64,000 bases of DNA from Stakelama sediminis (GTDB lineage Bacteria > Pseudomonadota > Alphaproteobacteria > Sphingomonadales > Sphingomonadaceae): assembly GCF_014199335.1 (NCBI RefSeq), contig NZ_JACIJI010000006.1, forward strand, positions 1 to 64,000, written 5' to 3'. This document shows positions 20,099-46,880 of this stretch, one piece after another. The notes under the pieces were generated by a model. That model had not been told where the DNA came from. It did not search any database and worked only from the letters and a program-made list of their open reading frames with translations. The position numbers and the translations under genes are program-made. The first letter of the stretch is position 1. Every line of letters starts with the position of its first letter.

Positions 20099-20118
20099 GG
20101 TGATCATGCATGATCACC
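20099..20118. promoter_or_regulatory. 20-bp perfect palindrome over the start of the HTH gene
   Basis: GGTGATCATG followed by its exact inverted copy CATGATCACC. It covers the Shine-Dalgarno region and the ATG at 20110 (another ATG at 20106 lies inside it). This is the expected form of an operator for autoregulation by the small HTH protein it precedes. A shorter palindrome with the same TGATCA core (CGGCTGATCAGCCG, 20724-20737) overlaps the end of the following gene. Confidence 0.65.
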
Positions 20119-20376
20119 GCCCGACAATCACGGGCCGCACGCGCGTTGCTGGGTTGGACACAGGAGACGCTCGCTGACAAGGCCCGCATATCGCTGACCG
20201 CGCTCAAACGCCTCGAATCCGAAAGCGGACTCGATGTGTACGAGACAACGCGCGATCAGGTGCGCAGGGCTTTGGAAGCTGCCGGCATCGTCTTCCTGTC
20301 CACCGATAAAGGGCAAGGAGTGTTGCTGGTCGATGATCGCGGAAATAAGTCCAATCCATCCACCGTCGCGCGCTGA
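20110..20376 (+). CDS. XRE-family regulator, QseC-like
   Basis: An 88-residue DNA-binding protein. The helix-turn-helix is RAARALLGWTQETLADKARISLTALKRLESE (about residues 8-39), then a short strand-rich C terminus. In ICEMlSym of Mesorhizobium a small HTH repressor (QseC) controls the antiactivator gene qseM. Here the HTH gene lies directly before a QseM-like gene, and a perfect palindrome covers its start. QseC-like function is inferred from order and size. Start is taken at 20110; 20106 is out of frame. Confidence 0.8.
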   Translation: MITARQSRAARALLGWTQETLADKARISLTALKRLESESGLDVYETTRDQVRRALEAAGIVFLSTDKGQGVLLVDDRGNKSNPSTVAR

Positions 20377-20469: not shown

Positions 20470-20730
20470 ATGATCGAGACATTCGACGATACCGCGCCGG
20501 CAGGACAGGAACTCACCGCCTACGACAAGGCGCACGTCAAGCTCTACGCGCGCTTGCTGGACGCGGATGCCGACGGCGCCGATTGGGCAGAGGCGGTTCA
20601 AATCTTGTTCGGACTCGATCCCACACACGACCCCGAACGCTGTCGACGCATCCACGATAGTCATCTCGCTCGCGCTCGCTGGATGACGCATACCGGCTAT
20701 CGGCATCTTCTGCGCCAGTCCCACGGCTGA
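20470..20730 (+). CDS. Small DUF2285-like protein, QseM-like antiactivator candidate
   Basis: An 86-residue helical protein: ELTAYDKAHVKLYARLLDADADGADWAEAVQILFGLDP, then RCRRIHDSHLARARWMTHTGYRHLLRQ. Small proteins of this type are annotated as DUF2285 and include QseM of ICEMlSym, which binds and blocks the activator FseA. The position between the HTH gene and the frame-split fseA-like gene supports the same role. The start at 20470 gives the usual N terminus, but there is no strong Shine-Dalgarno; in-frame ATGs at 20437 and 20446 are alternatives. Confidence 0.72.
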   Translation: MIETFDDTAPAGQELTAYDKAHVKLYARLLDADADGADWAEAVQILFGLDPTHDPERCRRIHDSHLARARWMTHTGYRHLLRQSHG

Positions 20731-20858: not shown

Positions 20859-21083
20859 ATGAGGCCAGATACAAGCGACTGGCGGGACGACAGCCGTTAC
20901 GACTATTTCGATAGATTGCCGGTCGAAGGTCTCGCTTGGGAATGTCTTCGCCGATACGTTCCTTATCAGGAACTCTACAGCGGTCTTGTGAACGCTGCCG
21001 CCGAAGCCGCACCGCTTCCAAAAGATGCACAACAACTCTGGGGGCTGCGATTTCGCCGCCAGGCCGGGCTTGTCCGCGCTTGA
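20859..21083 (+). CDS. N-terminal part of a frameshifted FseA-like activator (DUF6499)
   Basis: A 74-residue zero-frame product: MRPDTSDWRDDSRYDYFDRLPVEGLAWECLRRYVPYQELYSGLV is the DUF6499 domain that normally starts a longer transcriptional activator. The ATG has a GAGGAG Shine-Dalgarno. The frame stops at 21081-21083 while the rest of the protein continues in the +1 frame. In ICEMlSym the homologous pair msi172/msi171 is joined by programmed +1 ribosomal frameshifting to make FseA, activator of excision. The same arrangement here is probably functional, not decay, but a plain frameshift mutation cannot be excluded from sequence alone. Confidence 0.75.
   Translation: MRPDTSDWRDDSRYDYFDRLPVEGLAWECLRRYVPYQELYSGLVNAAAEAAPLPKDAQQLWGLRFRRQAGLVRA
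20992..21083 (+). other. Window in which the +1 ribosomal frameshift must occur
   Basis: The +1 frame opens after a TGA at 20989-20991 and the zero frame closes at the TGA 21081-21083, so the shift must lie between. Two candidate points: TTT-C-GCC at 21051-21057, where skipping one C joins LWGLRF to AARPGLSALDQ, the best fit to the family; and GCT-TGA-C at the zero-frame stop, similar in kind to the stop-codon shift of prfB. I cannot choose between them. Confidence 0.55.
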
Positions 21084-21621
21084 CCAAGATGTTGTGTGGT
21101 CGCCCTCATGCGATGGTGCCGTTCTTCTGCTGACACGCAGACCGGAGTTTCTGCCTCCTGCCTCCGCTGTATCTCCCGACCCGTTTGTCGTAGGGCGTGA
21201 CGCCCCAGAAGGCGCCTATGCGTCCTTCTCCGAACACGACATCCGGGTTCTTTTCCTTTCCGACACTGTTCCAGACGACCAGCTCGCCGCGCTGGTTCCG
21301 TTCGACAGCGAGGTCTTCGACCGCATCGATGCCCTGACGCGCATGGCGCGCATCTGGCTCGGCCGCCCGCCGCCGCGCGATACGCGCATGACCACCGAGC
21401 AACGGCGGCGCTTCCGGCTCAAGCTCCGCGCCGCCGACGGTCATATGAACGGCGCAAGCTATCGCGAGATCGCCATCGCGATCTACGGCGCGGCGCGCGT
21501 CGACACCGAGCCCTGGAAGACATCGCCGCTGCGCGATGCCGTCATCGCCTTCGTCGAAGGCGGTCTTTCCCTCATTGACGGCAATTATCTGCAACTGCTG
21601 CGCCATCGCCGCCGCTCCTAG
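21025..21621 (+). CDS. C-terminal part of the FseA-like activator (DUF2285), +1 frame
   Basis: The +1 frame encodes PGLSALDQDVVWSP, SPDPFVVGRDAPEGAYASFSEHDIRVLFLSD, a helical middle (FDRIDALTRMARIWLGR) and the C-terminal DUF2285 DNA-binding domain (MTTEQRRRFRLKLRAADGHMNGASYREIAIAIYG ... GGLSLIDGNYLQLLR). An ATG at 21025 exists, but it is not at a domain start and lacks a clear ribosome site; the segment more likely comes from frameshifting out of 20859. The reading frame is intact over 600 bases, which argues against random decay. The expected target is the promoter of the RdfS-like gene downstream. Confidence 0.78.
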   Translation: MHNNSGGCDFAARPGLSALDQDVVWSPSCDGAVLLLTRRPEFLPPASAVSPDPFVVGRDAPEGAYASFSEHDIRVLFLSDTVPDDQLAALVPFDSEVFDRIDALTRMARIWLGRPPPRDTRMTTEQRRRFRLKLRAADGHMNGASYREIAIAIYGAARVDTEPWKTSPLRDAVIAFVEGGLSLIDGNYLQLLRHRRRS

Positions 21622-21763
21622 TCGCCGCGCCTCCATGGCATCCGGGTGGAGATTTTAGCCACCTCAAGTTCCCCATCCATCCCACCGACGGTTCTCCGCC
21701 ACCGTGGTCGTTGTCAGCCGCTGATCGCCAGCGGCCCCCAGCAACCCCACGGAGGCCCGCCCC

Positions 21764-22063: not shown

Positions 22064-23197
22064 ATGGTGGTGCGGCGTCGTGACCCTTCGGAGCGTGGGC
22101 AGCTTGATTTGTTTCGCGCGCTCCCCGGCGACTTCGCGCCACGAGATGCGCAGGATCTCATGGCCTATCCTTTTTTCTCCCTCTCCAAATCCCATCGCGT
22201 CGCCCCGATCGACTTCGCGGCCGGCGACATCACGATCCGCGTCGAGGCCGTTCCAGATCATGGCATGGCCACGATCTGGGATGCCGACATCCTGATCTGG
22301 GCTGCCAGCCAGATCGTCGAAGCCCGCGACAACGGGCTTCGCACGTCCAGGCTGATGGCCGCGACGCCCTATGAAATCCTCACCTATGTCGGACGCGGCA
22401 CATCGCTGCGCGACTATCAGCGCCTCAAGGCGGCGCTGGACCGGCTGCAATCGACCACCATCTCGACCTCGATCCGCCAGCCCACCGAGGGCCGCCGCCA
22501 CCGTTTTTCATGGATCAACGAATGGCAGGAGCGCACCGACCGCAATGGACGGCCGGACGGTATCGAACTCATCGTCCCCGACTGGTTCTACAAAGCCGTC
22601 CTCGATGACGCGCTCATCCTCACCATCGACCCGGCCTATTTCTATCTGACCGGCGGTCTCGACCGCTGGCTCTACCGCATCGTGCGCAAGCACGGCGGCC
22701 GCCAGCGCAACGGCTGGCGTTTCGACCTGCGCCACCTCCACGTCAAATCCGGCAGTCTGTCGCCGTTCAAACGCTTCGCGTTCGAGCTACGCGACATCGT
22801 GCGGCGCCAGCCGCTGCCCGGCTACGTCCTGTCGCTGGAGGTGGAAATCGGCGGGCGCACGCTGCTCGCTTTCGAGCCGCTCCCGGCCTGTGGAAAACCT
22901 GTGGACGGCTTCGTGCTATCGGGAACCCGGACTATCGTGCCATCGGGAACCCAAGGCTCGTGCTATCAGGAACCCAAACCAGCCTTAACGTCCGGGAATC
23001 GCAGGCGGATTCGCGCCCTTAACTTAGAGTCTAACCAAGAATCTAACCTTGAAGAGCGCGCGCGCGATGTGGAACACCTCATCCGCGACGCCGCCAGAAA
23101 CCTCAGCGTAGCCGCGAAAAAGCGCGTCCCGACCGCACAGGTCGGCGATCCCGAAGCGCCCTGGCTTCCCCTCGATCCGCCGGGGGAACGCCGATGA
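22064..23197 (+). CDS. repA: Replication initiator protein RepA
   Basis: A 377-residue replication initiator A-type protein: YPFFSLSKSHRVAPIDFAAGDITIRVEAVPDHGMATIWDADILIWAASQI, YVGRGTSLRDYQRLKAALDRLQSTTI, GGLDRWLYRIVRKHGG. It has the double winged-helix layout of iteron-binding initiators. Its 3' end carries iterons and a DnaA box inside the coding sequence, which matches in-gene origins. It would replicate the excised circular form. The start is at an ATG 18 bases after the RdfS-like gene, and the stop overlaps parA by 4 bases. Confidence 0.9.
   Translation: MVVRRRDPSERGQLDLFRALPGDFAPRDAQDLMAYPFFSLSKSHRVAPIDFAAGDITIRVEAVPDHGMATIWDADILIWAASQIVEARDNGLRTSRLMAATPYEILTYVGRGTSLRDYQRLKAALDRLQSTTISTSIRQPTEGRRHRFSWINEWQERTDRNGRPDGIELIVPDWFYKAVLDDALILTIDPAYFYLTGGLDRWLYRIVRKHGGRQRNGWRFDLRHLHVKSGSLSPFKRFAFELRDIVRRQPLPGYVLSLEVEIGGRTLLAFEPLPACGKPVDGFVLSGTRTIVPSGTQGSCYQEPKPALTSGNRRRIRALNLESNQESNLEERARDVEHLIRDAARNLSVAAKKRVPTAQVGDPEAPWLPLDPPGERR
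22889..22975 (+). other. Putative origin: DnaA box and three iterons inside repA
   Basis: TGTGGAAAA at 22889-22897 is, on the minus strand, TTTTCCACA and fits the DnaA-box consensus TTWTNCACA. Three 17-bp direct repeats follow: CGTGCTATCGGGAACCC (22912-22928), CGTGCCATCGGGAACCC (22936-22952) and CGTGCTATCAGGAACCC (22959-22975). Start-to-start spacing is 24 and 23 bases, about two helical turns, as in iteron origins. Confidence 0.65.
23018..23053 (+). other. A+T-richer stretch with tandem 12-mers, possible unwinding element
   Basis: Just after the iterons the sequence becomes A+T-richer and repeats AGTCTAACCAAG / AATCTAACCTTG in tandem (12-bp period). This is the form of a DNA unwinding element. 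It is still inside repA (residues NLESNQESNLEE). Confidence 0.45.
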
Positions 23198-23847
23198 TCG
23201 TCGCGCTTCTCAATCAGAAAGGCGGTGTCGGGAAGACGACGCTCGCCCTCCATCTCGCCGGTGAACTCGCCGGGCGCGGGCGCCGTGTCACGCTGATCGA
23301 TGCGGACCCACAGGGTTCGGCGCTCGACTGGTCCGAGCAGCGCAGTCGTGAGGGCCTGCCGCGCGCGTTCGGTGTCGTCGGCCTGGCGCGCGATACGCTC
23401 CACCGCGAAGTACCCGAGCTGGCGCGCGATGTCGATCACATCGTCATCGACGGCCCGCCGCGTGTCGCCGGCCTCATGCGGTCGGCCTTGCTCGCCGCCG
23501 ACCTCGTGCTGATCCCGGTGCAGCCATCGCCGCTCGACGGCTGGGCCTCGGCCGAAATGCTATCGCTCCTGTCAGAAGCGCGCATCTACCGGCCGCAGCT
23601 CGTCGCCCGCTTCGTTCTCAATCGCTGCGCCGCACGTACCGTCATCGCGCGCGAGACGGCCGAGACGCTGGCCGATCACGATCCGCCAGTGCTCGCCACG
23701 ACCGTCGGCCAGCGCATCGTCTTCGCCGACGCCGCGCAGTCCGGGCGGCTCGCCTCGGAGATCGACAGCCGCTCGTCCGCCGGACGCGAGATCACCGCGC
23801 TCGCATCCGAGATCGGGCGGCTGCGCATCGGGAGGGACGGTTCATGA
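23194..23847 (+). CDS. parA: ParA-family partition ATPase
   Basis: A 217-residue ParA/MinD-type ATPase. The deviant Walker A QKGGVGKTTLALHLA is at residues 8-22, Walker A' LIDADPQGSALDW at 36-48 and Walker B HIVIDGPPR near 84. It lacks an N-terminal DNA-binding domain, so it is the short type. It overlaps repA and the methyltransferase gene by 4 bases each. It should stabilise the circular form of the element. A classical ParB is not adjacent; the 61-residue protein two genes on may be the partner. Confidence 0.92.
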   Translation: MIVALLNQKGGVGKTTLALHLAGELAGRGRRVTLIDADPQGSALDWSEQRSREGLPRAFGVVGLARDTLHREVPELARDVDHIVIDGPPRVAGLMRSALLAADLVLIPVQPSPLDGWASAEMLSLLSEARIYRPQLVARFVLNRCAARTVIARETAETLADHDPPVLATTVGQRIVFADAAQSGRLASEIDSRSSAGREITALASEIGRLRIGRDGS

Positions 23848-24769: not shown

Positions 24770-25287
24770 CCGGCACCGCGGCCCCCCGCGTGCGCGGCGG
24801 CCCGATGCCGTCCGCGCTCTCCCATGATCGCATGACCCGCGTCGAACTGACGTGGATCGAGAAGAAGATCGAATACTGGATCAGGTTTGGCCAGGCGGCG
24901 AACGAACAGATCGTCGACCGTCGCCAGCGCATTCTCTCTTTCCGGCCGAACACCGTCTTCGCCTTCGTGCGATGGGCGGCGAACGACTTCGGAACGATCA
25001 TCTCGCGCATCGACATTGTGCGTGCGGTCGAGCCGGGCGAGGCTTACCAGACGCTGCCTTTCGTGCGGCCGGGCGGCGAAATCCTACTGAAGATCGAAGG
25101 CTGGCCAAAGGTCGAGGACGTGCTGCGCCACGTCGATGCGATCGAGGCGATCGGCATCGATGCGGACGCCGTTTCGCCGGAGCACTGGCGGCACGTCCAC
25201 AACCGGATGGCCGCCGCCCATCAGCCGCGCGCCTATACGCTCGAACAGCATCGCGCCTTCCTCCTGCGCAGGAAGGTGCAGCCATGA
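24766..25287 (+). CDS. DUF2840 domain protein
   Basis: A 173-residue protein. VELTWIEKKIEYWIRFGQAANEQIVDRRQRILSFRPNTVFAFVRWAANDFGT and the C terminus match DUF2840, found next to traF in alphaproteobacterial conjugation loci. No catalytic motif is visible and its job is unknown. The ATG at 24766 overlaps the previous stop (ATGA) and its own stop overlaps traF, so it is translationally coupled in the operon. Confidence 0.85.
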   Translation: MTGTAAPRVRGGPMPSALSHDRMTRVELTWIEKKIEYWIRFGQAANEQIVDRRQRILSFRPNTVFAFVRWAANDFGTIISRIDIVRAVEPGEAYQTLPFVRPGGEILLKIEGWPKVEDVLRHVDAIEAIGIDADAVSPEHWRHVHNRMAAAHQPRAYTLEQHRAFLLRRKVQP

Positions 25288-25829
25288 CGCGCACCAGCCT
25301 CCTCCTCGTCATGGCGCTCGCCACGATGGGCATCGGCTATCCGGCGCTCACGCCGATGCCGATCAAGCTGATGTGGAACGCCTCGGCCAGCGCGCCCATC
25401 GGCCTCTACACGATCGACTTCGACGGCCCGTTCGACGTCACCGATCTGGTCGCGGTCGACGCACCCAAACCGCTCTCCGCCTTCATGGCCGAGCGCGGCT
25501 ATCTGCCCAAGGGCGTGCCGCTGCTCAAGCGCGTTCTCGGCGTTTCCGGGCAGATCGTTTGCCGCATCGGCCGCACGATCACCGTGGACGGGATCGAAAT
25601 GGGCGCGGCGCTGGAGCGCGACCGCATCGGGCGGGAACTGCCGGTCTGGCAGGGCTGCCGCCGCATCCAGACCGGCGAAGTCTTCCTCATGAACTGGCAG
25701 GTCCGCGACAGCCTCGACGGCCGCTACTTCGGCCTGACTTCCACCGACCAGATCATCGGCCACGCGGCCCCGCTTTGGACCGACGAAGACGGCACCGGCC
25801 GCTTTGAATGGCGTGCTCCGACCCGGTGA
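25284..25829 (+). CDS. traF: TraF, S26-family signal peptidase of conjugation
   Basis: A 181-residue serine protease with an N-terminal membrane anchor (residues 4-22). The catalytic Ser is in NASASAPIGLY (Ser36) and the Lys in PLLKRVLG (Lys82). TraF of the Trb/IncP systems cyclises or matures the TrbC pilin; the trbC gene is present at 32622. The start overlaps the DUF2840 stop (ATGA). Length is normal for the family. Confidence 0.9.
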   Translation: MTRTSLLLVMALATMGIGYPALTPMPIKLMWNASASAPIGLYTIDFDGPFDVTDLVAVDAPKPLSAFMAERGYLPKGVPLLKRVLGVSGQIVCRIGRTITVDGIEMGAALERDRIGRELPVWQGCRRIQTGEVFLMNWQVRDSLDGRYFGLTSTDQIIGHAAPLWTDEDGTGRFEWRAPTR

Positions 25830-25840
25830 ACGCCTGGCCA

Positions 25841-25863
25841 TCGGCGGGAGCGGTGCCCGCCGA
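25841..25863 (+). promoter_or_regulatory. Leader hairpin with AGCGGTG loop
   Basis: TCGGCGGG (25841-25848) pairs perfectly with CCCGCCGA (25856-25863). It sits 34 bases before the DUF736 start and resembles the leader hairpins at 18796 and 19660 in stem length and GG-containing loop. It might be a transcription attenuator or a translation control element. Confidence 0.4.
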
Positions 25864-25896
25864 CGGCTTTCCCAACGCACCGCAAAGGAAGCAATC

Positions 25897-26244
25897 ATGC
25901 CTCAGATTGGTACATTCACACGCGAAGAGACCGGCTTCATCGGCAATCTTCTGACGCTGCTGCTCGTTCAGGACATCATCATCGTCCCGGCTGAGCCGTC
26001 AGACGCCGAAAACGCGCCCGATTATCGCGTTCACGTCTTCGATGCCATGAGCAACGAGACCACCGCCGAGATCGGCGCGGGGTGGAAGCGCATCGGCGAG
26101 AAGGCCGGCGAATATGTCGCCCTGTTGATCGACGATCCCACATTCATGCAGCCGATCCGCGCCAACCTGTTCCGCGACGACGATGCCGGAAAAGACTGGT
26201 CGCTGCACTGGTCGCGTCCGCGCGACCGCGCCGAGAAGGACTGA
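25897..26244 (+). CDS. DUF736 family protein
   Basis: A 115-residue protein. The start MPQIGTFTREETGFIGNLLTLLL and the C-terminal DPTFMQPIRANLFRDDDAGKDWSLHWSRPRDR are typical of DUF736, a small soluble family found on alphaproteobacterial plasmids and ICEs. Its function is not known. The ATG at 25897 follows AAAGGAAG, a good ribosome site, and 67 bases separate it from traF, with a hairpin between. Confidence 0.87.
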   Translation: MPQIGTFTREETGFIGNLLTLLLVQDIIIVPAEPSDAENAPDYRVHVFDAMSNETTAEIGAGWKRIGEKAGEYVALLIDDPTFMQPIRANLFRDDDAGKDWSLHWSRPRDRAEKD

Positions 26245-26247
26245 CCG

Positions 26248-27027
26248 ATGCCCGCTCGCCGTCCATCGACGAGCCATCGGAGTGCGCACGGGCGGCATCA
26301 CGCCGCCCGGCGCATGGCTCTCTTTCTCCTTTCCGGCCTGATCCTCGCAGCGAGCGCGACCGGCGCCGCTCATGCGCAATCCGCCCCCATCGCCCGTCCG
26401 GCCGCCGTCGATCCCTTTGCCGCCCACATTACCGAGGCGGCGCAGCGGTTCGGCATCCCCGGACGCTGGATTCGCGCCGTGCTGCGCGCCGAGAGCGCGG
26501 GCGACGTGCGCGCCATCTCGTCGGCGGGTGCATTGGGACTGATGCAGGTCATGCCTGACACATGGGCTGGCTTGCGCGTCCGCTACCGTCTCGGCCGCGA
26601 CCCTTTTGATCCGCGCGACAACATCATGGCGGGAGCGGCCTATCTGCGCGAAATGTGGGACCGCTATGGCGATGTCGGTGCGATGCTCGCGGCCTACAAC
26701 GCCGGTCCCGGCCGCTATGACGACCATCGCTCGACCGGCCGCGCGTTGCCGCCCGAAACACGGACCTATGTCGCCGCGCTCGTGCCGGTTCTCGGCGGCG
26801 CGGCGGCACCCGAAACGTCAATTCAGCGAGCCGATCCGCCACCCGACTGGCGCGAGGCGGCGATCTTCGTCGTGCGTTCCGCCGACGCTCGCTCCGCAGC
26901 GCCACGGTCGGCCAATGAGCGTTCGGACGACAGCCGATCCCCCGTCACGGCGAGGCCATCCGATCCGGCCGCAACATCGGATTCGCCCCTTGTCGTCGCA
27001 CGCTCCACTCCAGGAGATCGCCCATGA
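26248..27027 (+). CDS. VirB1-like lytic transglycosylase
   Basis: A 259-residue secreted enzyme. A signal peptide ends near AAHAQ (about residue 44). The SLT domain covers about residues 60-170, with the catalytic Glu in VLRAESAGDVRA and the motifs GALGLMQVMPDTW and AAYNAGPG. It would open peptidoglycan for assembly of the mating channel. The C-terminal 60 residues are Arg/Ser/Asp-rich and probably disordered. It is the last gene before the candidate oriT and the relaxase. Confidence 0.92.
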   Translation: MPARRPSTSHRSAHGRHHAARRMALFLLSGLILAASATGAAHAQSAPIARPAAVDPFAAHITEAAQRFGIPGRWIRAVLRAESAGDVRAISSAGALGLMQVMPDTWAGLRVRYRLGRDPFDPRDNIMAGAAYLREMWDRYGDVGAMLAAYNAGPGRYDDHRSTGRALPPETRTYVAALVPVLGGAAAPETSIQRADPPPDWREAAIFVVRSADARSAAPRSANERSDDSRSPVTARPSDPAATSDSPLVVARSTPGDRP

Positions 27028-27128
27028 GCGTGCGGGCCGCCATTCGCATCCTCTCGTGTTCCGGCGTGTCATGGAGGGCGCAAGGGGCAGAGGCAGGCAC
27101 AACAACCGGACGATGGCGAGATAAAAAG

Positions 27129-27260
27129 GCGCACGGTGCGCTTCGGTCGGTCGGTTGTTTTTGCTTGTTTTTTCGGCGCGTTCCGCACCGTGTCGTGCTT
27201 TCGCGCACCGTGCGACCCGCACCCATCTTCCTGATTTTCCTGTTCCTTTTGTACCGTGCG
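27129..27260. other. Candidate oriT / operator cluster before the relaxase
   Basis: The 243 bp between the transglycosylase and the relaxase carry four copies of a GCACCGTGC-like motif: the palindrome GCGCAC-g-GTGCGC (27129-27141), CCGCACCGTGTCG (27183-27195), CGCAC-c-GTGCG (27204-27214) and GTACCGTGCGG (27251-27261). Between them are T-rich runs unlike the surrounding DNA. Relaxase genes of this type usually lie beside oriT. No nick site can be assigned. An 85-codon frame (27024-27281) crosses this region but has no family signature. Confidence 0.5.
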
Positions 27261-27270
27261 GAGTTCCGCC

Positions 27271-29010
27271 ATGGCCGATGACAGCGAAATCCGCATCCGG
27301 CCTGGGCGCATCCGCTCGACCCGCGCACAGCAGGCCCGGCCCTTCATTTCGCAGGCGCTCGCCGCCGCGCAGAAGGCTGGGGGCCGCGTCTCCCGTTCCG
27401 GCAAGATCACGACGAGCAACCGCTCACGGTTCGGACGCGGCCAGCGCGCCAGCATTCAGGCCAACCGCCTGCTGACCGGCCGCTCGCGCATCGTCGTCAT
27501 CAAGACCCGCGTGGTGCGCCATAGCGCGCGCGCCGCGCCGCTGGCTGCGCATCTGACCTATCTGCGCCGCGACGGCGTGACCCGAGACGGGGAGAAGGCG
27601 AGGCTGTTCGGCCCCGAAGGCGACAACGTGGACGCGCGCGACTTCGCGGCGCGCTGCGAGGACGACCGGCACCATTTCCGCTTCATCGTCTCGCCCGAGG
27701 ACGCCGTGGATATGGCCGACCTCAAGGAACACGCCCGCGAACTGATGGGACAGATGGAAAAGGATCTCGGCACCAAGCTCGATTGGGTCGGTGTCGATCA
27801 CTGGAACACCGACAACCCCCATATCCATATCATCCTGCGCGGCCGCACCGACGACGGCCAGGACCTCGTGATCTCCCGCGATTACATCAAGGAGGGAATG
27901 CGCGCCCGCGCGCAGGATCTCGTCACCCAGGAGCTCGGCCAGCGCACCGATCTGGAGATCAACCGCAATCTGGAGCGGCAGGTCGAGGCCGAACGCTGGA
28001 CGCAGCTCGACCGGCAACTTGTCCGCGAGGCCGGCAAGTCGGGCATCATCGACCTCGCGCCGCAGCCCGGCCAGCAGCCGGACGAATTTCATGCGCTGAA
28101 GGTCGGCAGGCTGCGCACCCTCGAAATCCGTGGGCTGGCCGGACAGGTCGGACACCAGCAATGGTTCATCAAGGCCGAGGCCGAATCCGCGCTTCGCGAA
28201 CTCGGCGAGCGCGGCGACATTATCAAACGGATGCACCGCGCGCTGACCGAACGCTGCATCGAGCGCGGCTCGGGGAGCTATGTCCTCGCCGGCGAGAGCC
28301 TCGATGTTCCCGTCATCGGCCGCCTGGTCGAGCGCGGCCTTGACGACGAGCTGAAGGGAACGGCCTACGCCGTGGTCGACGGCGTGGACGGCCGCACCCA
28401 TCACATCAGGCTGCCGCATCTCGACGCCACCGGCGACAGCCCGCCGGGATCGATCGTCGAGCTGCGCGCTTACGAGGACGCGAAGGGCGATCGCCGTGTC
28501 GCGCTCGCCGTCCGCTCCGATCTCGATCTCCAGCATCAGGTGAGCGCCACCGGCGCGACCTGGCTCGACCGGCAATCCATCGCCCGCGAACCCGTCGCCA
28601 TGTCGGACGGCGGCTTCGGCGCCGAAGTGCGGGACGCGATGCGGCAACGCGCGGAGCATCTGGTCGGCGAAGGTCTCGCCGAGCAGCAAGGGCGCCGCGT
28701 CATCTTCAACCGCAACCTGATCGAGACGCTCCGCCGCCGCGAACTAGATGCCATGGCCAGCAGGCTCGCAAAGGAGACCGGCCAGCCATTCAAACCGGCC
28801 GAAAGCGGCGAATATGTTGCCGGCACATATCGCCAGCGTCTGACGCTCGCCTCCGGCCGCTTCGCCATGGTCGACGACGGCCTCGGCTTCCAGCTCGTGC
28901 CCTGGTCGCCATCCCTCGACAGGCAGCTCGGCCGCCACGTCTCCGGCGTCGCCCGCGACGGCGGCGGCGTCGATTGGGATTTCGGCCGTAAGCGCGGGCT
29001 CGGCCTCTAG
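27271..29010 (+). CDS. Relaxase/mobilization nuclease with DUF3363 (RlxS-like)
   Basis: A 579-residue relaxase. The HUH metal-binding motif is DHWNTDNPHIHIILRG (His177, His184, His186). A nucleophilic Tyr is expected in the N-terminal half (AHLTYLRRDG, about residue 92). The C-terminal half is DUF3363 (YAVVDGVDGRTHHIRLP). It nicks oriT and pilots the strand into the recipient. The type corresponds to RlxS of ICEMlSym. An in-frame GTG at 27256 is possible; the ATG at 27271 was chosen because the GGAG at about 27260-27263 serves it. The basic N terminus (RIRPGRIRSTRAQQARP) is usual. Confidence 0.92.
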   Translation: MADDSEIRIRPGRIRSTRAQQARPFISQALAAAQKAGGRVSRSGKITTSNRSRFGRGQRASIQANRLLTGRSRIVVIKTRVVRHSARAAPLAAHLTYLRRDGVTRDGEKARLFGPEGDNVDARDFAARCEDDRHHFRFIVSPEDAVDMADLKEHARELMGQMEKDLGTKLDWVGVDHWNTDNPHIHIILRGRTDDGQDLVISRDYIKEGMRARAQDLVTQELGQRTDLEINRNLERQVEAERWTQLDRQLVREAGKSGIIDLAPQPGQQPDEFHALKVGRLRTLEIRGLAGQVGHQQWFIKAEAESALRELGERGDIIKRMHRALTERCIERGSGSYVLAGESLDVPVIGRLVERGLDDELKGTAYAVVDGVDGRTHHIRLPHLDATGDSPPGSIVELRAYEDAKGDRRVALAVRSDLDLQHQVSATGATWLDRQSIAREPVAMSDGGFGAEVRDAMRQRAEHLVGEGLAEQQGRRVIFNRNLIETLRRRELDAMASRLAKETGQPFKPAESGEYVAGTYRQRLTLASGRFAMVDDGLGFQLVPWSPSLDRQLGRHVSGVARDGGGVDWDFGRKRGLGL

Positions 29011-29034
29011 CTTCAACAGACAAGGAACATCGCA

Positions 29035-31020
29035 ATGTCCGCGACCAAAATCCTCTGGGGACAGATTCTGATCGTCTTCCTCATCGTCCTCTCTACCACC
29101 TGGGGCGCGACCGAATATGTCGCCTGGAGGCTCGGGTTCCAGGCGCAGCTTGGGCCGCCCTGGTTCGTCCTGTTCGGCTGGCCGATCTATCATCCGCCCA
29201 GCTTCTTCTGGTGGTGGTTTTCCTACGACGCCTATGCGTCCGAGATATTCACCGAGGGCGCGTTCGTCGCCGCGTCAGGCGGCTTCATCGCGATCGCCGT
29301 CGCGATCGGCATGTCGGTCTGGCGGGCGCGCGAAGCCAGGGACGCCGCGACCTATGGCTCGGCACGCTGGGCCGAGAAGGAAGAGGTGAAGGCCGCGGGG
29401 CTGCTCGATCCCGATGGCGTCGTGCTCGGCCGCTACGAAAGAGAGTATCTGCGCCATGACGGGCCGGAGCATGTGCTGTGCTTCGCGCCGACGCGATCGG
29501 GCAAAGGCGTCGGCCTTGTCGTGCCCTCGCTCCTGACCTGGCCGGGCTCGGCCATCGTCCACGACATCAAGGGCGAGAACTGGACGCTGACATCCGGTTT
29601 CCGCGCGCACCACGGCCGCGTGCTGCTGTTCGATCCGACCAATCCGAAATCCTCGGCCTACAATCCCTTGCTCGAGGTGCGGCGCGGCGAGTGGGAAGTG
29701 CGCGACGTGCAAAACATCGCCGATATTCTGGTCGATCCCGAAGGGAGCCTCGACAAGCGCAACCACTGGGAAAAGACCTCCCATTCGCTGCTCGTCGGCG
29801 CGATCCTCCATGTCCTCTACGCCGAGCCGGAAAAGACGCTCGCCGGTGTCGCCAACTTCCTCTCCGATCCGAAACGCCCCGTCGAATCCACGCTGCGCGC
29901 CATGATGAAGACCGCCCATCTCGGCGAGGACGGCCCGCATCCTGTCGTTGCCAGCGCGGCGCGCGAGCTGCTGAACAAATCCGACAACGAACGCTCCGGC
30001 GTCCTGTCCACGGCCATGTCGTTCCTCGGCCTCTACCGCGATCCTGTCGTCGCCGAGGTGACGCGGCGCTGTGACTGGCGCATCAGCGACGTCGTGGGCG
30101 GCGAGCGCCCGACGACGCTTTACCTCGTCGTGCCGCCGTCCGACATCAATCGCACCAAGCCGCTGATCCGGTTGCTGCTGAACCAGATCGGCCGCCGTCT
30201 GACCGAGGATCTGCAGGCAAAGGGCGACCGTCACCGCCTGCTCTTGATGCTCGACGAGTTTCCGGCGTTGGGGCGGCTCGACTTTTTCGAGAGCGCACTG
30301 GCTTTCATGGCGGGCTATGGCCTCAAAGCCTTCCTGATCGCGCAGTCGCTCAACCAGATCGAAAAGGCATACGGCCCCAACAACTCCATTCTCGACAACT
30401 GCCACGTCAGGGTCAGCTTCGCCACGAACGACGAGCGCACCGCCAAGCGTGTGTCCGATGCGCTGGGCACCGCAACCGAAATGAAGGCGATGAAGAACTA
30501 TGCCGGGCATCGACTGTCGCCCTGGCTCGGCCATCTGATGGTCTCGCGCTCGGAGACCGCCCGCCAGTTGCTGACGCCCGGCGAGATCATGCAGCTCCCG
30601 CCGAGCGAGGAAATCGTCATGGTCGCCGGCACCCCGCCGATCCGGACGAAGAAGGCGCGCTACTACGAGGACGCCCGTTTCCGCGAGCGCCTGCTGTCAC
30701 CGCCCGAACTGAAACGTCCCGACAAGCCTCGCCCCGACGACTGGAGCAGCCTGCCGATCCCGGCGCGGCCGGAGGCGCTGGGCGCGCAGGCACCCGGCGG
30801 ATCGGACGACGAAGACACCACCGATTCCGAGCGCCGGCTGCAACCCGAACTCAGCCGCGCCAAGCCGGTAGAAAAGAAAGAACCCATCGCCAACGAGTTC
30901 GAGATCGAGCTTCCCGACGACACCGACGAGGACGCCACGCGCAATCGACGGATGATCCGCCAGGTTCAGGGCATCGCGCGCCAGGTGGCGCTCGACCCCA
31001 ATGACGGCATGGACCTGTAA
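29035..31020 (+). CDS. traG: TraG/VirD4-family conjugative coupling protein
   Basis: A 661-residue membrane ATPase. Two N-terminal membrane helices (about residues 6-27 and 75-97) anchor it. Walker A APTRSGKGVG is at about 151-160 and Walker B LLLMLDEFPALG near 402-413. The C terminus is acidic and probably disordered. It couples the relaxase-DNA complex to the Trb channel. It starts 24 bases after the relaxase and is followed after 5 bases by a ribbon-helix-helix gene, so the three are probably co-transcribed. Confidence 0.95.
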   Translation: MSATKILWGQILIVFLIVLSTTWGATEYVAWRLGFQAQLGPPWFVLFGWPIYHPPSFFWWWFSYDAYASEIFTEGAFVAASGGFIAIAVAIGMSVWRAREARDAATYGSARWAEKEEVKAAGLLDPDGVVLGRYEREYLRHDGPEHVLCFAPTRSGKGVGLVVPSLLTWPGSAIVHDIKGENWTLTSGFRAHHGRVLLFDPTNPKSSAYNPLLEVRRGEWEVRDVQNIADILVDPEGSLDKRNHWEKTSHSLLVGAILHVLYAEPEKTLAGVANFLSDPKRPVESTLRAMMKTAHLGEDGPHPVVASAARELLNKSDNERSGVLSTAMSFLGLYRDPVVAEVTRRCDWRISDVVGGERPTTLYLVVPPSDINRTKPLIRLLLNQIGRRLTEDLQAKGDRHRLLLMLDEFPALGRLDFFESALAFMAGYGLKAFLIAQSLNQIEKAYGPNNSILDNCHVRVSFATNDERTAKRVSDALGTATEMKAMKNYAGHRLSPWLGHLMVSRSETARQLLTPGEIMQLPPSEEIVMVAGTPPIRTKKARYYEDARFRERLLSPPELKRPDKPRPDDWSSLPIPARPEALGAQAPGGSDDEDTTDSERRLQPELSRAKPVEKKEPIANEFEIELPDDTDEDATRNRRMIRQVQGIARQVALDPNDGMDL

Positions 31021-31641: not shown

Positions 31642-32625
31642 ATGACCACTTCATACCAGAAACCAGAGGCGATCCAACGCGGCGCAAGGATGCTGCGCAC
31701 GGCGCTTGGCCCGGCCATCGCACGCTTTCTGGAAGACCCCGCCGTCGTCGAGGTGATGCTGAATCCTGATGGGCGCATCTGGATCGATCGCCTGTCCGAA
31801 GGGCTGGCCGATACGGGCGAGAGACTGTCGGTCGCGGATGGCGAACGCATCGTGCGCCTGGTCGCGCACCATGTCGGCGCGGAGGTTCATGATCGATCCC
31901 CGCGCGTCTCGGCCGAGCTGCCCGAGAGCGGCGAGCGGTTCGAAGGCCTGCTTCCGCCCGTCGTCGCTGCGCCCGCATTCGCGATCCGCAAGCCCGCCGT
32001 CGCGGTCTTCACGCTCGACGATTATGTGGCTGCCGGCATCATGACCGCCGATCAGGCCGCAACCTTGCGCGAAGCCGTCGCGGCGCGCGCCAACATCCTC
32101 GTCGCGGGCGGCACCTCGACCGGCAAGACCACCTTGACCAATGCGCTGCTCGCCGAAGTCGCCAAGACCGCCGATCGCGTCGTCATCATCGAGGACACGC
32201 TCGAACTGCAATGCACAGCGTCCAACCTCGTCGCCATGCGCACCAAGGACGGCGTCGCCACGCTCTCGGATCTCGTCCGGTCCTCACTGCGCCTGCGGCC
32301 CGACCGCATCCCCATCGGCGAGGTGCGCGGCGCTGAAGCGCTCGACCTTCTCAAAGCCTGGGGCACCGGACACCCCGGCGGCATCGGCACCATTCATGCC
32401 GGCACCGGCATCGGCGCGCTGCGCCGTCTCGAACAGCTCATCCAGGAAGCCGTCGTCACCGTCCCGCGCGCGCTGATCGCCGAGACGATCGATCTCGTCG
32501 CCGTCCTGTCAGGCCGCGGGTCCGCGCGCCGGCTCGCCGAACTCGCCCGTGTCGAAGGGCTCGGCCCGGACGGGGATTACCGCATCAGCCCTGCAACCCC
32601 CATCAACGCTGGAGACCATTCATGA
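31642..32625 (+). CDS. trbB: TrbB, VirB11-type ATPase
   Basis: A 327-residue hexameric ATPase of the type IV secretion system. Walker [13 protein letters not shown] is at about residues 155-166, the Asp box [11 protein letters not shown] near 182-192 and the His box [13 protein letters not shown] near 247-259. It supplies energy for pilus assembly and substrate transfer on the cytoplasmic side. First gene of the trb operon; 4-base overlap with trbC. Confidence 0.95.
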
Positions 32626-32954
32626 TCCGCATCCCCATGCGCGTCCGTCGCACCGTCGCGACGGTCGCCGCCGTCACCTACGTCAATCTCGTCCTCGCTC
32701 CCGCCGCCCACGCCTCCGGCTCCTCCATGCCGTGGGAAGCGCCGCTCCAGAAAATCCTTCAGTCGATCGAAGGCCCGGTCGCAAAGATCGTCGCAGTCAT
32801 CATCATCATCGCGACGGGTCTGGCGCTCGCCTTCGGCGACACGTCTGGCGGCTTCCGCAAGCTGATCCAGATCGTGTTCGGCCTGTCGATCGCCTTCGCG
32901 GCGTCGAGCTTCTTCCTGTCGTTCTTCTCGTTTGGCGGCGGGGCGCTCGTCTGA
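32622..32954 (+). CDS. trbC: TrbC, VirB2-type pilin precursor
   Basis: A 110-residue pilin precursor with a long leader (cleavage likely near PAAHASG, residue about 27) and two hydrophobic segments (about 45-67 and 79-101). TrbC is matured by TraF, encoded at 25284. The ATG overlaps trbB and its stop overlaps trbD by one base. Confidence 0.92.
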   Translation: MIRIPMRVRRTVATVAAVTYVNLVLAPAAHASGSSMPWEAPLQKILQSIEGPVAKIVAVIIIIATGLALAFGDTSGGFRKLIQIVFGLSIAFAASSFFLSFFSFGGGALV

Positions 32955-33232
32955 TGGCCGTCGCCTTCGAGCAACTGGATGTGCCGGGATTCACCGTCCC
33001 GGTTCACCGCGCACTGACCGAGCACATCCTGCTCGGCGGTGCGCCGCGCTCCATCGCGATCCTCAACGGGACGCTAGCCGGAGCCGTGGGCCTCGGCCTG
33101 CGCCTCTGGCTGGTCGGCATCGCCATCTGGGCCATCGGCCATGTCGCTGCCGTGTGGGCCGCCAAGCGCGATCCCCAATTCGTCGAGGTCGGCCGACGCC
33201 ATCTGCGCGTCCCAGCTTTTCTCGCGGCCTGA
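32954..33232 (+). CDS. trbD: TrbD, VirB3-like protein
   Basis: A 92-residue protein beginning MAVAFEQLDVPGFTVPVHRALTEHILLGGAPRSIAILNGTLAGAVGLGL. One hydrophobic region (about residues 36-68) would anchor it in the inner membrane, where it works with the TrbE ATPase. The start overlaps the trbC stop (TGATG). Confidence 0.92.
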   Translation: MAVAFEQLDVPGFTVPVHRALTEHILLGGAPRSIAILNGTLAGAVGLGLRLWLVGIAIWAIGHVAAVWAAKRDPQFVEVGRRHLRVPAFLAA

Positions 33233-33246
33233 AGGGGACGCCCGCC

Positions 33247-35691
33247 ATGATGAACCTCTCCGAATATCGCCGCACCGCAGCCCGCCTTGCCGATTTCCTG
33301 CCCTGGGCCGCCTTGGTCGGCCCCGGCGTCGTCGTGAACAAGGACGGCTCTTTCCAGCGCACGGCGCGCTTTCGCGGCCCCGATCTTGATAGCGCCGTCG
33401 CCGCCGAACTGGTGGCCGTCGCAGGCCGCATCAACAACGCCTTCCGCCGTCTCGGCTCGGGCTGGAGCATCTTCGTCGAGGCGCAGCGAAGCGAAGCCGC
33501 GACCTATCCCGACAGCAGCTTTCCCGATCCGGCATCCGGCCTGGTGGACGAGGAACGCAAGGCCGATTTCGAGGAAGCCGGCAGCCATTTCGTGTCGGAC
33601 TACTATCTGACCTTCCTCTATCTGCCGCCCGCCGAGGACGCCGCCCGGGCCGAGACATGGCTGTACGAGGGCCGCGAGCAATCCGGCGTCGATCCCCATG
33701 AGGTGATGCGTGGGTTCATCGACCGCACCGACCGGGTGCTCGCGCTGCTCGATGGCTTCATGCCCGAATGCGGCTGGCTCGATGACTCGGAAACGCTGAC
33801 CTATCTGCATTCGACCGTTTCGACGAAACGCCACCGCGTCCGCGTTCCCGAAACCCCAGTCTATCTCGATGCGCTGCTTGTCGATCAGCCGCTGACCGGC
33901 GGCCTGGAGCCGCGCCTTGGCGACCAGCATCTGCGCGTCCTCACCGTCATCGGCTTTCCGACCGCGACGACGCCGGGGCTGCTCGACGAGCTCAACCGGC
34001 TCGCTTTCCCGTATCGCTGGTCCACTCGCGCGATCCTGCTCGACAAGACCGACGCGACCAAACTGCTGACCAAAATCCGCCGCCAGTGGTTCGCCAAGCG
34101 CAAGTCGATCGCCGCGATCCTCAAGGAAGTCCTGACCAACGAGGCGTCGGCGCTGGTCGACACCGATGCGTCCAACAAGGCCGCCGACGCCGACATGGCC
34201 TTGCAGGAACTCGGCGCCGATGTCGCCGGCATGGCCTATGTCACGGCCACCATCACGGTCTGGGATGCCGACCCGCGCATCGCCGACGAGAAGTTGCGCC
34301 TGGTCGAGAAGGTCATTCAGGGCCGCGACTTCACGCCCATGACCGAGACGGTGAATGCGGTCGATGCCTGGCTCGGCAGCTTGCCCGGCCACGCCTACGC
34401 CAATGTCCGCCAGCCTCCCATCAGCACTTTGAATCTCGCCCACATGATCCCCCTGAGTGCCGTGTGGGCGGGGCCGGAACGGGACGAGCATTTCGGTGCG
34501 CCCCCCTTGCTTTACGGCAAGACCGAAGGCTCGACCCCGTTCCGGTTATCCCTCCATGTCGGCGACGTCGGCCATACGCTCGTCGTCGGCCCGACCGGCG
34601 CGGGCAAGTCCGTGCTGCTCGCGCTCATGGCCTTGCAGTTCCGGCGCTATAGCGATGCCCAGGTCTTCGCCTTCGATTTCGGCGGCTCGATCCGCGCCGC
34701 GGCACTCGCCATGGGCGGCGACTGGCACGATCTTGGCGGCGGCCTCACCGAAGGCTCCGACGCATCCGTCTCGCTTCAGCCGCTCGCCCGCATCCACGAC
34801 ACCTATGAGCGTGCCTGGGCGGCAGACTGGATCGTCGCAATCCTGATGCGCGAGGCGATCCAGATCACGCCGGACGTGAAGGAGCATATCTGGACGGCGC
34901 TTACCTCGCTCGCGTCCGCGCCGGTCGAAGAACGCACAATCACCGGCCTGTCGGTGCTGCTCCAGTCTAACGACATCAAACAGGCGCTCCGGCCCTATTG
35001 CGTAGGCGGCGCCTATGGCCGGCTGCTCGACGCCGAGGCCGAACATCTGGGCTCCGCCGCCGTGCAGGCGTTCGAGATCGAGGGGCTGGTCGGCACCGGC
35101 GCGGCGCCCGCCGTGCTCGCCCATCTCTTCCACCGCATCGGCGACCGGCTCGACGGCCGACCGACGCTGCTCATCATCGACGAAGGCTGGCTCGCGCTCG
35201 ACGATGAAGGCTTTGCCGGCCAGCTCCGCGAATGGCTGAAGACGCTGCGCAAGAAGAACGCATCGGTCATCTTCGCCACGCAGTCGCTCAGCGACATCGA
35301 CAATTCGAGCATCGCGCCCGCCATCATCGAAAGCTGCCCGACGCGGCTGCTCCTCCCGAACGAACGCGCAATCGAGCCGCAGATCACGGCGATCTATCGC
35401 CGCTTCGGCCTCAATGATCGCCAGATCGAGATCCTGGCACGGGCGACGCCCAAGCGCGACTACTACTGCCAGTCTCGACGCGGAAACCGCCTGTTCGAGC
35501 TGAGCCTGTCCGAAGTCGGCCTTGCGCTCTGCGCCGCATCCTCAAAATCCGACCAGACCCTGATCGCCAACCTCGTCGCCGAACATGGCCGCGAAGGTTT
35601 CCTTGCGGCCTGGCTTCGCGCCCGCGACGCCGGCTGGGCCGTCGATCTCATCCCGACTTTTCCGTCCCCCCAAGCAGCAAAGGAGTCCTGA
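33247..35691 (+). CDS. trbE: TrbE, VirB4-type ATPase
   Basis: An 814-residue ATPase, the largest energy component of the channel. Walker A GPTGAGKSVLLALMA is near residues 447-461, Walker B TLLIIDEGWLAL near 640-651, and the C-terminal IFATQSLSDIDNSSIAPAIIESCPTRLLLPN is typical of VirB4. Adjacent ATG codons at 33247 and 33250 are both possible starts; AAGGGG upstream serves either. It ends 2 bases before trbJ. Confidence 0.95.
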   Translation: MMNLSEYRRTAARLADFLPWAALVGPGVVVNKDGSFQRTARFRGPDLDSAVAAELVAVAGRINNAFRRLGSGWSIFVEAQRSEAATYPDSSFPDPASGLVDEERKADFEEAGSHFVSDYYLTFLYLPPAEDAARAETWLYEGREQSGVDPHEVMRGFIDRTDRVLALLDGFMPECGWLDDSETLTYLHSTVSTKRHRVRVPETPVYLDALLVDQPLTGGLEPRLGDQHLRVLTVIGFPTATTPGLLDELNRLAFPYRWSTRAILLDKTDATKLLTKIRRQWFAKRKSIAAILKEVLTNEASALVDTDASNKAADADMALQELGADVAGMAYVTATITVWDADPRIADEKLRLVEKVIQGRDFTPMTETVNAVDAWLGSLPGHAYANVRQPPISTLNLAHMIPLSAVWAGPERDEHFGAPPLLYGKTEGSTPFRLSLHVGDVGHTLVVGPTGAGKSVLLALMALQFRRYSDAQVFAFDFGGSIRAAALAMGGDWHDLGGGLTEGSDASVSLQPLARIHDTYERAWAADWIVAILMREAIQITPDVKEHIWTALTSLASAPVEERTITGLSVLLQSNDIKQALRPYCVGGAYGRLLDAEAEHLGSAAVQAFEIEGLVGTGAAPAVLAHLFHRIGDRLDGRPTLLIIDEGWLALDDEGFAGQLREWLKTLRKKNASVIFATQSLSDIDNSSIAPAIIESCPTRLLLPNERAIEPQITAIYRRFGLNDRQIEILARATPKRDYYCQSRRGNRLFELSLSEVGLALCAASSKSDQTLIANLVAEHGREGFLAAWLRARDAGWAVDLIPTFPSPQAAKES

Positions 35692-35693
35692 CC

Positions 35694-36458
35694 ATGATTA
35701 CCCGTTTCCGCTCGCGCGCCATGGCGCTCGCCGCAGCCATGCTGGCGGCCGCGCCGCTCGCGCTCTCGCCGATGGTGGCGACGCCCGCGCACGCCATCAT
35801 CGTCTTCGATCCCTCCAATTACGCGCAAAACGTCCTGACCGCTGCGCGCACACTGGAGCAGATCACCCATCAGATCACCTCGCTTCAGAACGAAGCGCAG
35901 ATGCTCATCAATCAGGCGAAAAACCTGGCGAGCCTGCCTTACTCCGCGCTCCAGACCTTGCAGCAGAACGTGCAGCGCACCCAGCAGCTTCTCCAGCAGG
36001 CGCAGGGCATCGCGTTCAACGTCCAGCAGATCGACCAGATGTTCACCCAGAAATATGGGAACGTCTCGATGTCGACGACCGACAAGCAGATGGTCGCCGA
36101 CGCCCGCTCGCGCTGGCAGAACACCGTCGGCGGCTTGCAGGACGCGATGCGCGTGCAGGCCGGCGTCGTCGCGAACATCGACACAAACCGCACGCAGATG
36201 TCGGCGCTGGTCAGCCAGAGCCAGGGCGCGAGCGGCGCGCTTCAGGCGACCCAGGCCGGCAATCAGATCCTCGCGCTCCAGTCGCAACAGCTCTCCGATC
36301 TCGTCGCGCTGCTCGCCTCCAATGGCCGCGCCAATGCGCTCACCGAGGCCGAACGCACCGCGGCCGCCGAACAGGGCCGCGAACAGCGCCGCCGCTTCCT
36401 GACGCCGGGCTCGGGCTACCAGCCCGGCAACGCCCAGATGTTCAACAGCGGCAAATAA
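35694..36458 (+). CDS. trbJ: TrbJ, VirB5-like pilus component
   Basis: A 254-residue exported protein. The signal peptide ends near TPAHA (about residue 31). Most of the rest is helical coiled coil (ARTLEQITHQITSLQNEAQMLINQAKNLASLPYSALQTLQQNV). It is a minor pilus component placed between trbE and trbK as in IncP plasmids. The ATG overlaps the region just after the trbE stop and has AAGGAG upstream. Confidence 0.93.
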   Translation: MITRFRSRAMALAAAMLAAAPLALSPMVATPAHAIIVFDPSNYAQNVLTAARTLEQITHQITSLQNEAQMLINQAKNLASLPYSALQTLQQNVQRTQQLLQQAQGIAFNVQQIDQMFTQKYGNVSMSTTDKQMVADARSRWQNTVGGLQDAMRVQAGVVANIDTNRTQMSALVSQSQGASGALQATQAGNQILALQSQQLSDLVALLASNGRANALTEAERTAAAEQGREQRRRFLTPGSGYQPGNAQMFNSGK

Positions 36459-36479
36459 ACGCCGGAAAGGAGAAGGCTC

Positions 36480-36776
36480 ATGGACGGCAAGTTGCTGGCC
36501 CGGCTGGGCGCTATCGTATTCGTCGCGGTCGCCGTCACGGCGACGGCGATCGAAATGACTCGCAAGCAGGACGCGCCGGCATCGCCGTCGGCGCGTCAGC
36601 TCCAGCCCGAACGCGATCCGCTGCGCGAGAGCCAGCGCCGGTGCCAGCAACTTGGTCAACAGGCCGCAAGCGACCCGGAATGCCTCCGCGTCTGGGCTGA
36701 AACCCGCGACCGCTTCCTCGGCAACGCGCCCATGCCGGTCGCACCGGCAGCGCCCGCCACAGCGGAAGGGCGGTGA
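36480..36776 (+). CDS. trbK: TrbK-like putative entry-exclusion protein
   Basis: A 98-residue protein with an N-terminal membrane segment (residues 5-25) and two Cys in the pattern RRCQQLGQQAASDPECLRVWAETRDRF, which matches the alternative TrbK family of alphaproteobacterial ICEs. TrbK proteins stop a host from receiving a second copy. GAAAGGAGAAGG precedes the ATG. Function by family and place only. Confidence 0.8.
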   Translation: MDGKLLARLGAIVFVAVAVTATAIEMTRKQDAPASPSARQLQPERDPLRESQRRCQQLGQQAASDPECLRVWAETRDRFLGNAPMPVAPAAPATAEGR

Positions 36777-36779
36777 GCC

Positions 36780-46874: not shown

Positions 46875-46880
46875 GCGGCC

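Follow-up and report, generated by a model that had tools for sequence, protein, structure and literature searches.

The closest described relative of the gene analyzed here is fseA (msi172-msi171) of ICEMlSymR7A in Mesorhizobium japonicum R7A, which consists of overlapping open reading frames (ORFs) for a DUF6499 and a DUF2285 part that are joined by +1 frameshifting, with UGGGGG already reported at the Trp-Gly-Leu (WGL) codons (excerpts of PMC10359603). The same excerpts describe FseA as binding two inverted hexamers with a 15- to 16-bp spacer upstream of rdfS, state that QseM binds its DUF6499 part, count ~61% of 4,709 curated FseA homologs as needing a +1 shift, and name RovC of Yersinia (PDB 6xz5) as a distant structural relative. 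For rihF1 of Azorhizobium, frameshifting is stated to be absent on the grounds that each of the two ORFs possesses its own start and stop (excerpt of PMC9601964). FseA of ICEMlSymR7A works with QseM, RdfS, TraF, and RlxS (excerpts of PMC10359603, PMC11963761, and PMC5882170), which have gene counterparts in the 64,000-nt stretch of Stakelama sediminis DNA that we analyzed (the window). The fseA-type gene of the window shares the two domains, the overlapping ORFs, the predicted +1 frameshift, and UGGGGG at WGL.

Another +1 shift, in prfB (release factor 2), resembles that of fseA in having an internal Shine-Dalgarno (SD)-like G-run upstream. In prfB, the shifting codon is CUU, a UGA stop follows it, and the SD spacing is 3 nt. 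The fseA site differs in being a stop-free UUU-C with a spacing of 6 nt, one codon further than in prfB. Influenza A virus PA-X likewise shifts +1 on UUU followed by C, at UCC_UUU_CGU, and the codon before UUU matters there; in bacteria, UUU_Ynn is especially +1-prone, and weaker E-site pairing favors the +1 shift (excerpts of PMC5009743). PA-X, however, is encoded by a virus of eukaryotes and has no evident stimulator, whereas fseA prefers CGA before UUU.

The fseA locus of the window

We read positions 20859 to 21621 as one fseA gene whose 253-aa product would be made by programmed +1 frameshifting at UUU-C, and we put the probability of this reading at roughly 0.93. The gene and its neighbors are as follows.

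20110 to 20376, + strand: small HTH regulator in the qseC place (HTH_3, E 1.7e-5; qseC role suggested by position)
20470 to 20730, + strand: QseM-like lone DUF2285 protein, candidate antiactivator (PF10074, E 3.9e-5, 24.6 bits; cutoff, 26.4)
20859 to 21083, + strand: frame-0 part of fseA, DUF6499 (PF20109, E 1.3e-18), 74 aa if no shift occurs
20992 to 21621, + strand: +1 open frame of fseA, middle part and DUF2285 (PF10074, E 2.1e-32), 209 codons
21764 to 22045, + strand: RdfS-like excisionase, HTH_17 (PF12728, E 1.1e-10; TIGR01764, 20 bits; cutoff, 28.8)
22064 to 23847, + strand: replication initiator RPA (22064 to 23197) and ParA (23194 to 23847) (PF10134, E 1.2e-89; NF041546, 270 bits)
24852 to 31020, + strand: TraF-like S26 peptidase, DUF736, SLT, RlxS-like relaxase (DUF3363), and TraG-type coupling protein (Pfam)
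31642 to 40952, + strand: Trb mating-pair genes T2SSE/TrbB, TrbC, CagE_TrbE_VirB, CagX/TrbG, and TrbI (Pfam)

By translation, frame 0 of fseA runs from the ATG at 20859 to the TGA at 21081 to 21083, and the +1 frame, bounded on its 5' side by a TGA at 20989 to 20991, is open from 20992 to 21621; the +1 frame is expected to be read from 21055. The PF20109 (formerly DUF6499) and PF10074 (formerly DUF2285, now RovC_DNA-bd) matches were both above the Pfam cutoff, whereas RovC matched the joined protein nonsignificantly by sequence (E 0.84). An earlier, sequence-only reading of the window had claimed that the DUF6499 part ends at 21083 with DUF2285 open in the +1 frame, which translation and Pfam confirmed, and that the frames overlap at 20992 to 21083, which translation bore out as well. 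It was also right in placing fseA between a QseM-like and an RdfS-like gene but not in likening this order to that of ICEMlSym, where msi172-msi171 follow traI2 and rdfS-traF-msi107 form a separate operon (excerpts of PMC5882170). A further difference from ICEMlSymR7A is that the sole LuxI-type gene of the window's genome lies on another contig (C7).

The neighboring genes have counterparts on plasmid pMC4 of Sphingopyxis indica. The HTH protein encoded at 20110 to 20376 shares 89% identity over 80 aa with its positional counterpart on pMC4, the small, intact QseM-like ORF encodes a protein with 70% identity over 82 aa to the DUF2285 protein WP_112830896 encoded in the same place, and the RdfS-like protein is 85% identical over 78 aa to a pMC4 gene product. 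Conjugative plasmids of both S. indica and Haematobacter massiliensis carry the annotated order HTH-DUF2285-DUF6499-DUF2285-HTH-RPA. In the window, a DNA methylase gene follows RPA and ParA and precedes the S26 peptidase gene. The rdfS, traF, rlxS, and trb genes of ICEMlSym type were all matched by Pfam, with roles assigned by family and gene order; on these grounds the S26 peptidase and the relaxase probably act as TraF and RlxS.

Beside the trb genes lies a consecutive set of efflux cargo genes at 42286 to 49501 (TetR, HlyD, an ABC ATPase, two ABC-2 permeases, and an outer membrane efflux protein). Further downstream of trb is a restriction-modification pair at 53194 to 56054, an N6 methylase of Eco57I type followed by a BsuBI/PstI-type endonuclease, and beyond the cargo genes is a tRNA-Arg (CCG) gene at 61966 to 62042, a possible integration site.

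Homolog frames and the slip site

Homologs were collected as DUF6499 matches from whole-genome searches and as DUF2285 relatives from named genome contigs and plasmids, with 140 further stretches fetched; the fseA gene of ICEMlSymR7A itself lay outside the loci fetched. Two profiles were built and run over 300 sequences (299 loci and the window), yielding 301 DUF6499 matches, 286 of which had a DUF2285 part at most 800 nt downstream. Duplicates included, 237 of these 286 paired homologs were split in the +1 sense, 48 had one ORF with both parts in the same frame, and 1 was split in the +2 sense; since the collections were sampled and these are counts among the matches listed, 237:48 is not a prevalence. 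None of the 286 had a same-frame DUF2285 part behind a stop. After removal of duplicates, there were 221 +1 split genes, 48 one-frame genes, 1 +2 gene, and 15 without a DUF2285 part.

A split gene in a single assembly can always result from a sequencing error or a recent inactivating indel, with fseA being really one frame or dead, and 3 of 12 odd homologs examined do seem broken for other reasons: L063, the sole +2 homolog, has the usual slip site and apparently a second indel, and L060 and L260 also look damaged. Random indels, however, would produce +1 and +2 splits alike, as opposed to the 237 to 1 observed. Moreover, the 16 nearest homologs in the tree, which come from separate genomes (13 named contigs) and include genomes or metagenome-assembled genomes of Pseudolabrys, Devosia, Camelimonas, Shinella, Kaistia, and Methylobacterium, are all split in the same way and at the same site as the window, so the close one-frame relatives that the sequence-only reading had named as counterevidence to itself were not found. 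In addition, dN was lower than dS in both fseA parts for the window versus 15 of these 16, the remaining one (L151) giving no dS estimate for its short frame-0 part. An error or indel is thus already largely refuted and keeps a vanishingly small probability; judged by these comparisons, the split is not due to chance.

The programmed shift that we prefer was located by using the Trp of the conserved W-G-L as an anchor, which made 218 of the 221 distinct split genes readable (L046, L056, and L260 could not be anchored).

21051 to 21054, + strand: slip site TTT-C, invariant across the window and the 16 relatives nearest to it

A frame-0 TTT was present 4 to 6 codons after the Trp in 211 of the 221 distinct split genes (W+4 in 205, W+5 in 5, and W+6 in 1). 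Elsewhere in the same genes, TTT makes up 27% of the Phe codons. In these 211 core genes, the next base was C in 204 and T in 7 and was never A or G, whereas the base after other in-frame TTT codons of the same genes was C in 135 cases, G in 82, T in 22, and A in 5. The one-frame homologs carry the same two domains in one frame and have no need to shift; of the 41 that were anchored, 3 had a TTT close to the site, followed by G in L016 (W+5) and by C in L052 (W+5) and L265 (W+4). Among the split genes outside the core, L047, L049, L244, and L250 do have a frame-0 TTT with C or T as the next base, their anchor or first TTT having been set wrongly, and L161 remained ambiguous; the real exceptions were L037 (TGT-C) and L104 (AGT-C), which may be decayed genes or may use another slip route. 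A looser fallback rule, under which a frame-0 TTT in the vicinity also counted if C or T came next, gave 220 rows, with L037 wrongly included, or 218 when only TTT before the stop was considered, but the C/T condition is circular for these extra rows, so the 211 anchored rows were used.

The association was also followed on a tree of 269 proteins from which the W-G-L-x-F region had been left out. At least 11 changes between split and one frame were found on this tree, and in 8 well-supported independent pairs, scored with the looser TTT trait (fallback rows included), TTT accompanied the split in an average of 7.5, with none reversed (median P = 0.008).

Amino acid conservation, measured as information content in 80 cluster representatives, moves out of frame 0 and into the +1 frame past 21053. 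Before the slip, the Trp, Gly, and Leu of frame 0 carry 4.2, 4.3, and 4.0 bits, versus 4.2, 3.1, and 2.2 bits at the same positions in the +1 frame, where the 4.2 bits at Trp arise because the bases of this codon are fixed in either frame. After the slip, the Asp and Pro of the +1 frame carry 2.5 and 3.7 bits, versus 1.6 and 2.3 bits in frame 0. The representatives were picked with TTT at W+4, so the constant TTT at that position reflects this selection. Comparison across homologs thus shows the split, its sense, the slip site, and the frame switch of fseA.

Across the window and these 16 relatives, the block TGGGGG-YTK-CGA-TTTC (Y, C or T; K, G or T) is invariant, while the frame-0 stop lies 30, 117, 147, or 252 nt past TTT (30 nt in the window); over 218 split genes the distance ranges from 6 to 1,521 nt, the longest possibly being clipped by the end of the locus. 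Because the stop moves and the TTTC block is fixed, the stop has no visible part in the slip. This bears on a +1 slip at the frame-0 stop itself (GCT-TGA-C), for which prfB is a precedent and the TGA 30 nt past TTT in the window a candidate; with the stop elsewhere in many of the nearest relatives and so variable a distance overall, we give such a slip almost no credence. Of the two sites offered by the sequence-only reading, TTT-C-GCC at 21051 to 21057 was therefore upheld and GCT-TGA-C was rejected; likewise, its proposed alignment check returned a +1 split that is kept in the 16 nearest relatives and a zero-frame stop whose position is not. Its central proposal, a programmed +1 frameshift giving an FseA-like protein, is strongly supported by the homolog comparison, and conservation of the mechanism in this FseA/ICE family holds as well but had already been published (excerpts of PMC10359603).

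Synthesis of two proteins, with DUF2285 produced from an internal +1-frame start by reinitiation or coupling, would fit the ATG at 21025 in the +1 frame of the window and the annotation of plasmid relatives as two proteins. This ATG, however, is absent from 10 of the 16 nearest relatives; among 218 split genes, no +1-frame ATG or GTG position between -60 and +150 nt is common to more than 32, and only 39 have any +1-frame start with an SD-like motif in front of it ahead of DUF2285. An internal start also leaves unexplained why TTT is followed by C or T only and why the domains are joined in one-frame genes, and in R7A it is the joined polypeptide that is described as FseA (excerpts of PMC10359603). 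We consider separate synthesis of two proteins very unlikely.

With TGGGGGCTGCGATTTC at 21039 to 21054, the window matches the conserved +1 site with UGGGGG at WGL. Among 249 genomes of the window's family, GGGGTTGCGATTTC occurred 25 times, and 24 of these occurrences lay where a DUF6499 match ends; the window's version, GGGGCTGCGATTTC, had 17 matches, 6 in DUF6499 matches and 11 elsewhere (occurrences were matched to the DUF6499 list by eye); the TTG form is thus nearly private to fseA-type genes, whereas the CTG form is not. A looser pattern, GGGGNTNCGATTTC, had many occurrences outside DUF6499 genes. Another formal +1 re-pairing site in the overlap, AAA-G at 21021 to 21024, was rejected as nonconserved, AAA being present in 9 of the 17 nearest rows.

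Codon biases around the slip codon

Two elements flank the slip codon on its upstream side.

21039 to 21044, + strand: TGGGGG (codons W-G), SD-like, with 6 nt between it and the slip codon downstream; the window and the 16 relatives nearest to it are identical here
21048 to 21050, + strand: CGA codon before the slip codon, occupying the E site once UUU has entered the P site

Of the 211 core split genes, 163 use GGG for the Gly of W-G-L, versus a GGG share of 15% among the Gly codons elsewhere in the same genes, and the excess persisted when sequences were cluster-weighted at 60, 50, and 45% identity (57.7 of 80, 34.1 of 50, and 21.1 of 33, respectively). GGG was found in 12 of 41 one-frame genes, but its association with the split on independent pairs was not significant (2.3 for, 0.7 against). 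The codon after Gly starts with T in 109 of 161 genes with GGG, versus 14 of 44 without, and this T would lengthen the pairing with the anti-SD (GGGGGU with ACCUCC). When profiled over every second split row (109 of 218), the energy of the anti-SD duplex was lowest just upstream of the slip codon, with a mean of -8.2 kcal/mol versus approximately -3.4 to +0.6 outside; since one-frame genes also reach -5.9 kcal/mol at this peak, part of the pairing is due to coding.

The five-G run just upstream of the site could alternatively induce transcriptional slippage, in which case the frames would be joined in the mRNA rather than by the ribosome. Loss of a G would turn Leu-Arg into Cys-Asp, yet the Leu is kept in 76 of 80 representatives and is written by different Leu codons; furthermore, 48 of the 211 core split genes lack the GGG codon at W-G-L, and the conserved point is TTT-C. 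Transcriptional slippage appears extremely unlikely.

For ribosomal slipping, the codon before TTT may matter as well. Where this codon encodes Arg, 87 of 93 split rows use CGA, compared to a CGA share of 8.9% among the Arg codons elsewhere in the same genes, and cluster weighting at 60, 50, and 45% identity gave 36.4 of 39, 20.4 of 22, and 12.4 of 14. This bias fits weak E-site pairing favoring the +1 slip (excerpts of PMC5009743). On the other side of the slip codon, CGN follows UUU, as in PA-X, in the window and in 111 of the 211 core split genes. No downstream RNA structure was detected in 90 representatives (mean z scores of -0.17 and -0.01) or in the window (z, 0.77).

GGGGG and CGA would thus be the stimulators of the slip. 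Tentatively, and at somewhat less than even odds, the fseA site may be a small cassette (UGGGGG-(U/C)UG-CGA-UUU-C) whose three cis elements work jointly, with neither a stop nor a downstream structure, representing a distinct class of SD-assisted +1 sites kept as a unit on conjugative elements. In such a cassette, the internal SD, at initiation spacing and one codon beyond that of prfB, would pause the ribosome rather than pull it, CGA would leave the E site weakly held, and UUU-C would allow re-pairing.

The predicted excision switch

According to the frameshift model, the ribosome would decode frame 0 through W-G-L-R-F until UUU occupies the P site, at which point tRNA-Phe would slip one base forward to UUC (21052 to 21054), and translation would resume at GCC (21055) in the +1 frame and continue via DUF2285 to 21621. 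Pairing of the internal GGGGG with the anti-SD of 16S rRNA probably holds the ribosome at the slip site, and CGA, through weak pairing in the E site, probably favors the slip. Ribosomes that do not slip would end at 21083 and release DUF6499 alone. Slipping in this host, its rate, its stimulators, and the function of FseA are what we infer. By analogy, FseA probably activates rdfS and hence excision and transfer of the element, and the QseM-like protein encoded just upstream probably restrains FseA.

The region upstream of rdfS was scanned for FseA boxes in 81 nonredundant regions, out of 114 with an rdfS-like motif, with start codons guessed by script.

21648 to 21674, + strand: candidate FseA box GGAGAT-N15-TTCCCC upstream of rdfS, weak in the window (4 of 6 positions complementary)

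Inverted hexamers with a spacer of 15 to 16 nt located 85 to 89 nt upstream of the rdfS start were found 31 times versus 5.5 expected, and a hexamer pair was present at 84 to 90 nt in 32 of the 81 regions. The hexamers come in several versions that covary on both arms (for example, TGTCGA/TCGACA, GGCGAA/TTCGCC, and GGGGAT/TTCCCC). The published FseA box logo places one hexamer at 62 to 67 nt upstream of rdfS (excerpts of PMC10359603), and because our distance of 85 to 89 nt differs from this, we treat the box as a candidate.

Between fseA and rdfS, at 21717 to 21735, there is a dyad, GCCGCTGATCGCCAGCGGC, with perfect 7-base arms that is distinct from the FseA box candidate. Among 89 regions upstream of rdfS, 33 contain the pattern GCCG-N11-CGGC, versus 1.7 expected.

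Some FseA boxes read TGCGAT, which raised the question of whether the slip block, TTGCGATTTC, doubles as an embedded half-site for FseA. The similarity of the slip block to the box of its own locus was no better than that of permuted pairings (195 of 500 permutations gave values at least as high as observed in 40 loci), and because the slip block varies little while FseA boxes vary much, the half-site idea was rejected.

The window's genome contains four DUF6499 matches, one in the window and three on contigs C9, C12, and C14.

C9, 19772 to 20928: FseA-type gene, split at TGG-GGC-CTG-AGC-TTT-C, with a lone DUF2285 (QseM-like) match upstream
C12, 24732 to 25524: FseA-type gene, split at TGG-GGA-CTC-ACC-TTT-C
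C14, 1417 to 2118: FseA-type gene, one frame

With two split copies and one one-frame copy in addition to the window's gene, this genome offers a natural comparison within one translation machinery.

The +1 mechanism is already known from FseA; this analysis contributes the exact position of the site, the test on the tree, and the biases in codon choice. As a consequence of the +1 split, many records annotate fseA as two fragments. Since the exact four bases and the biases of the flanking codons are named, the mechanism becomes testable by single-codon changes. Taken together, these results indicate that in the window's element, as in ICEMlSymR7A, the excision switch is gated by ribosomal slipping at a precise point.
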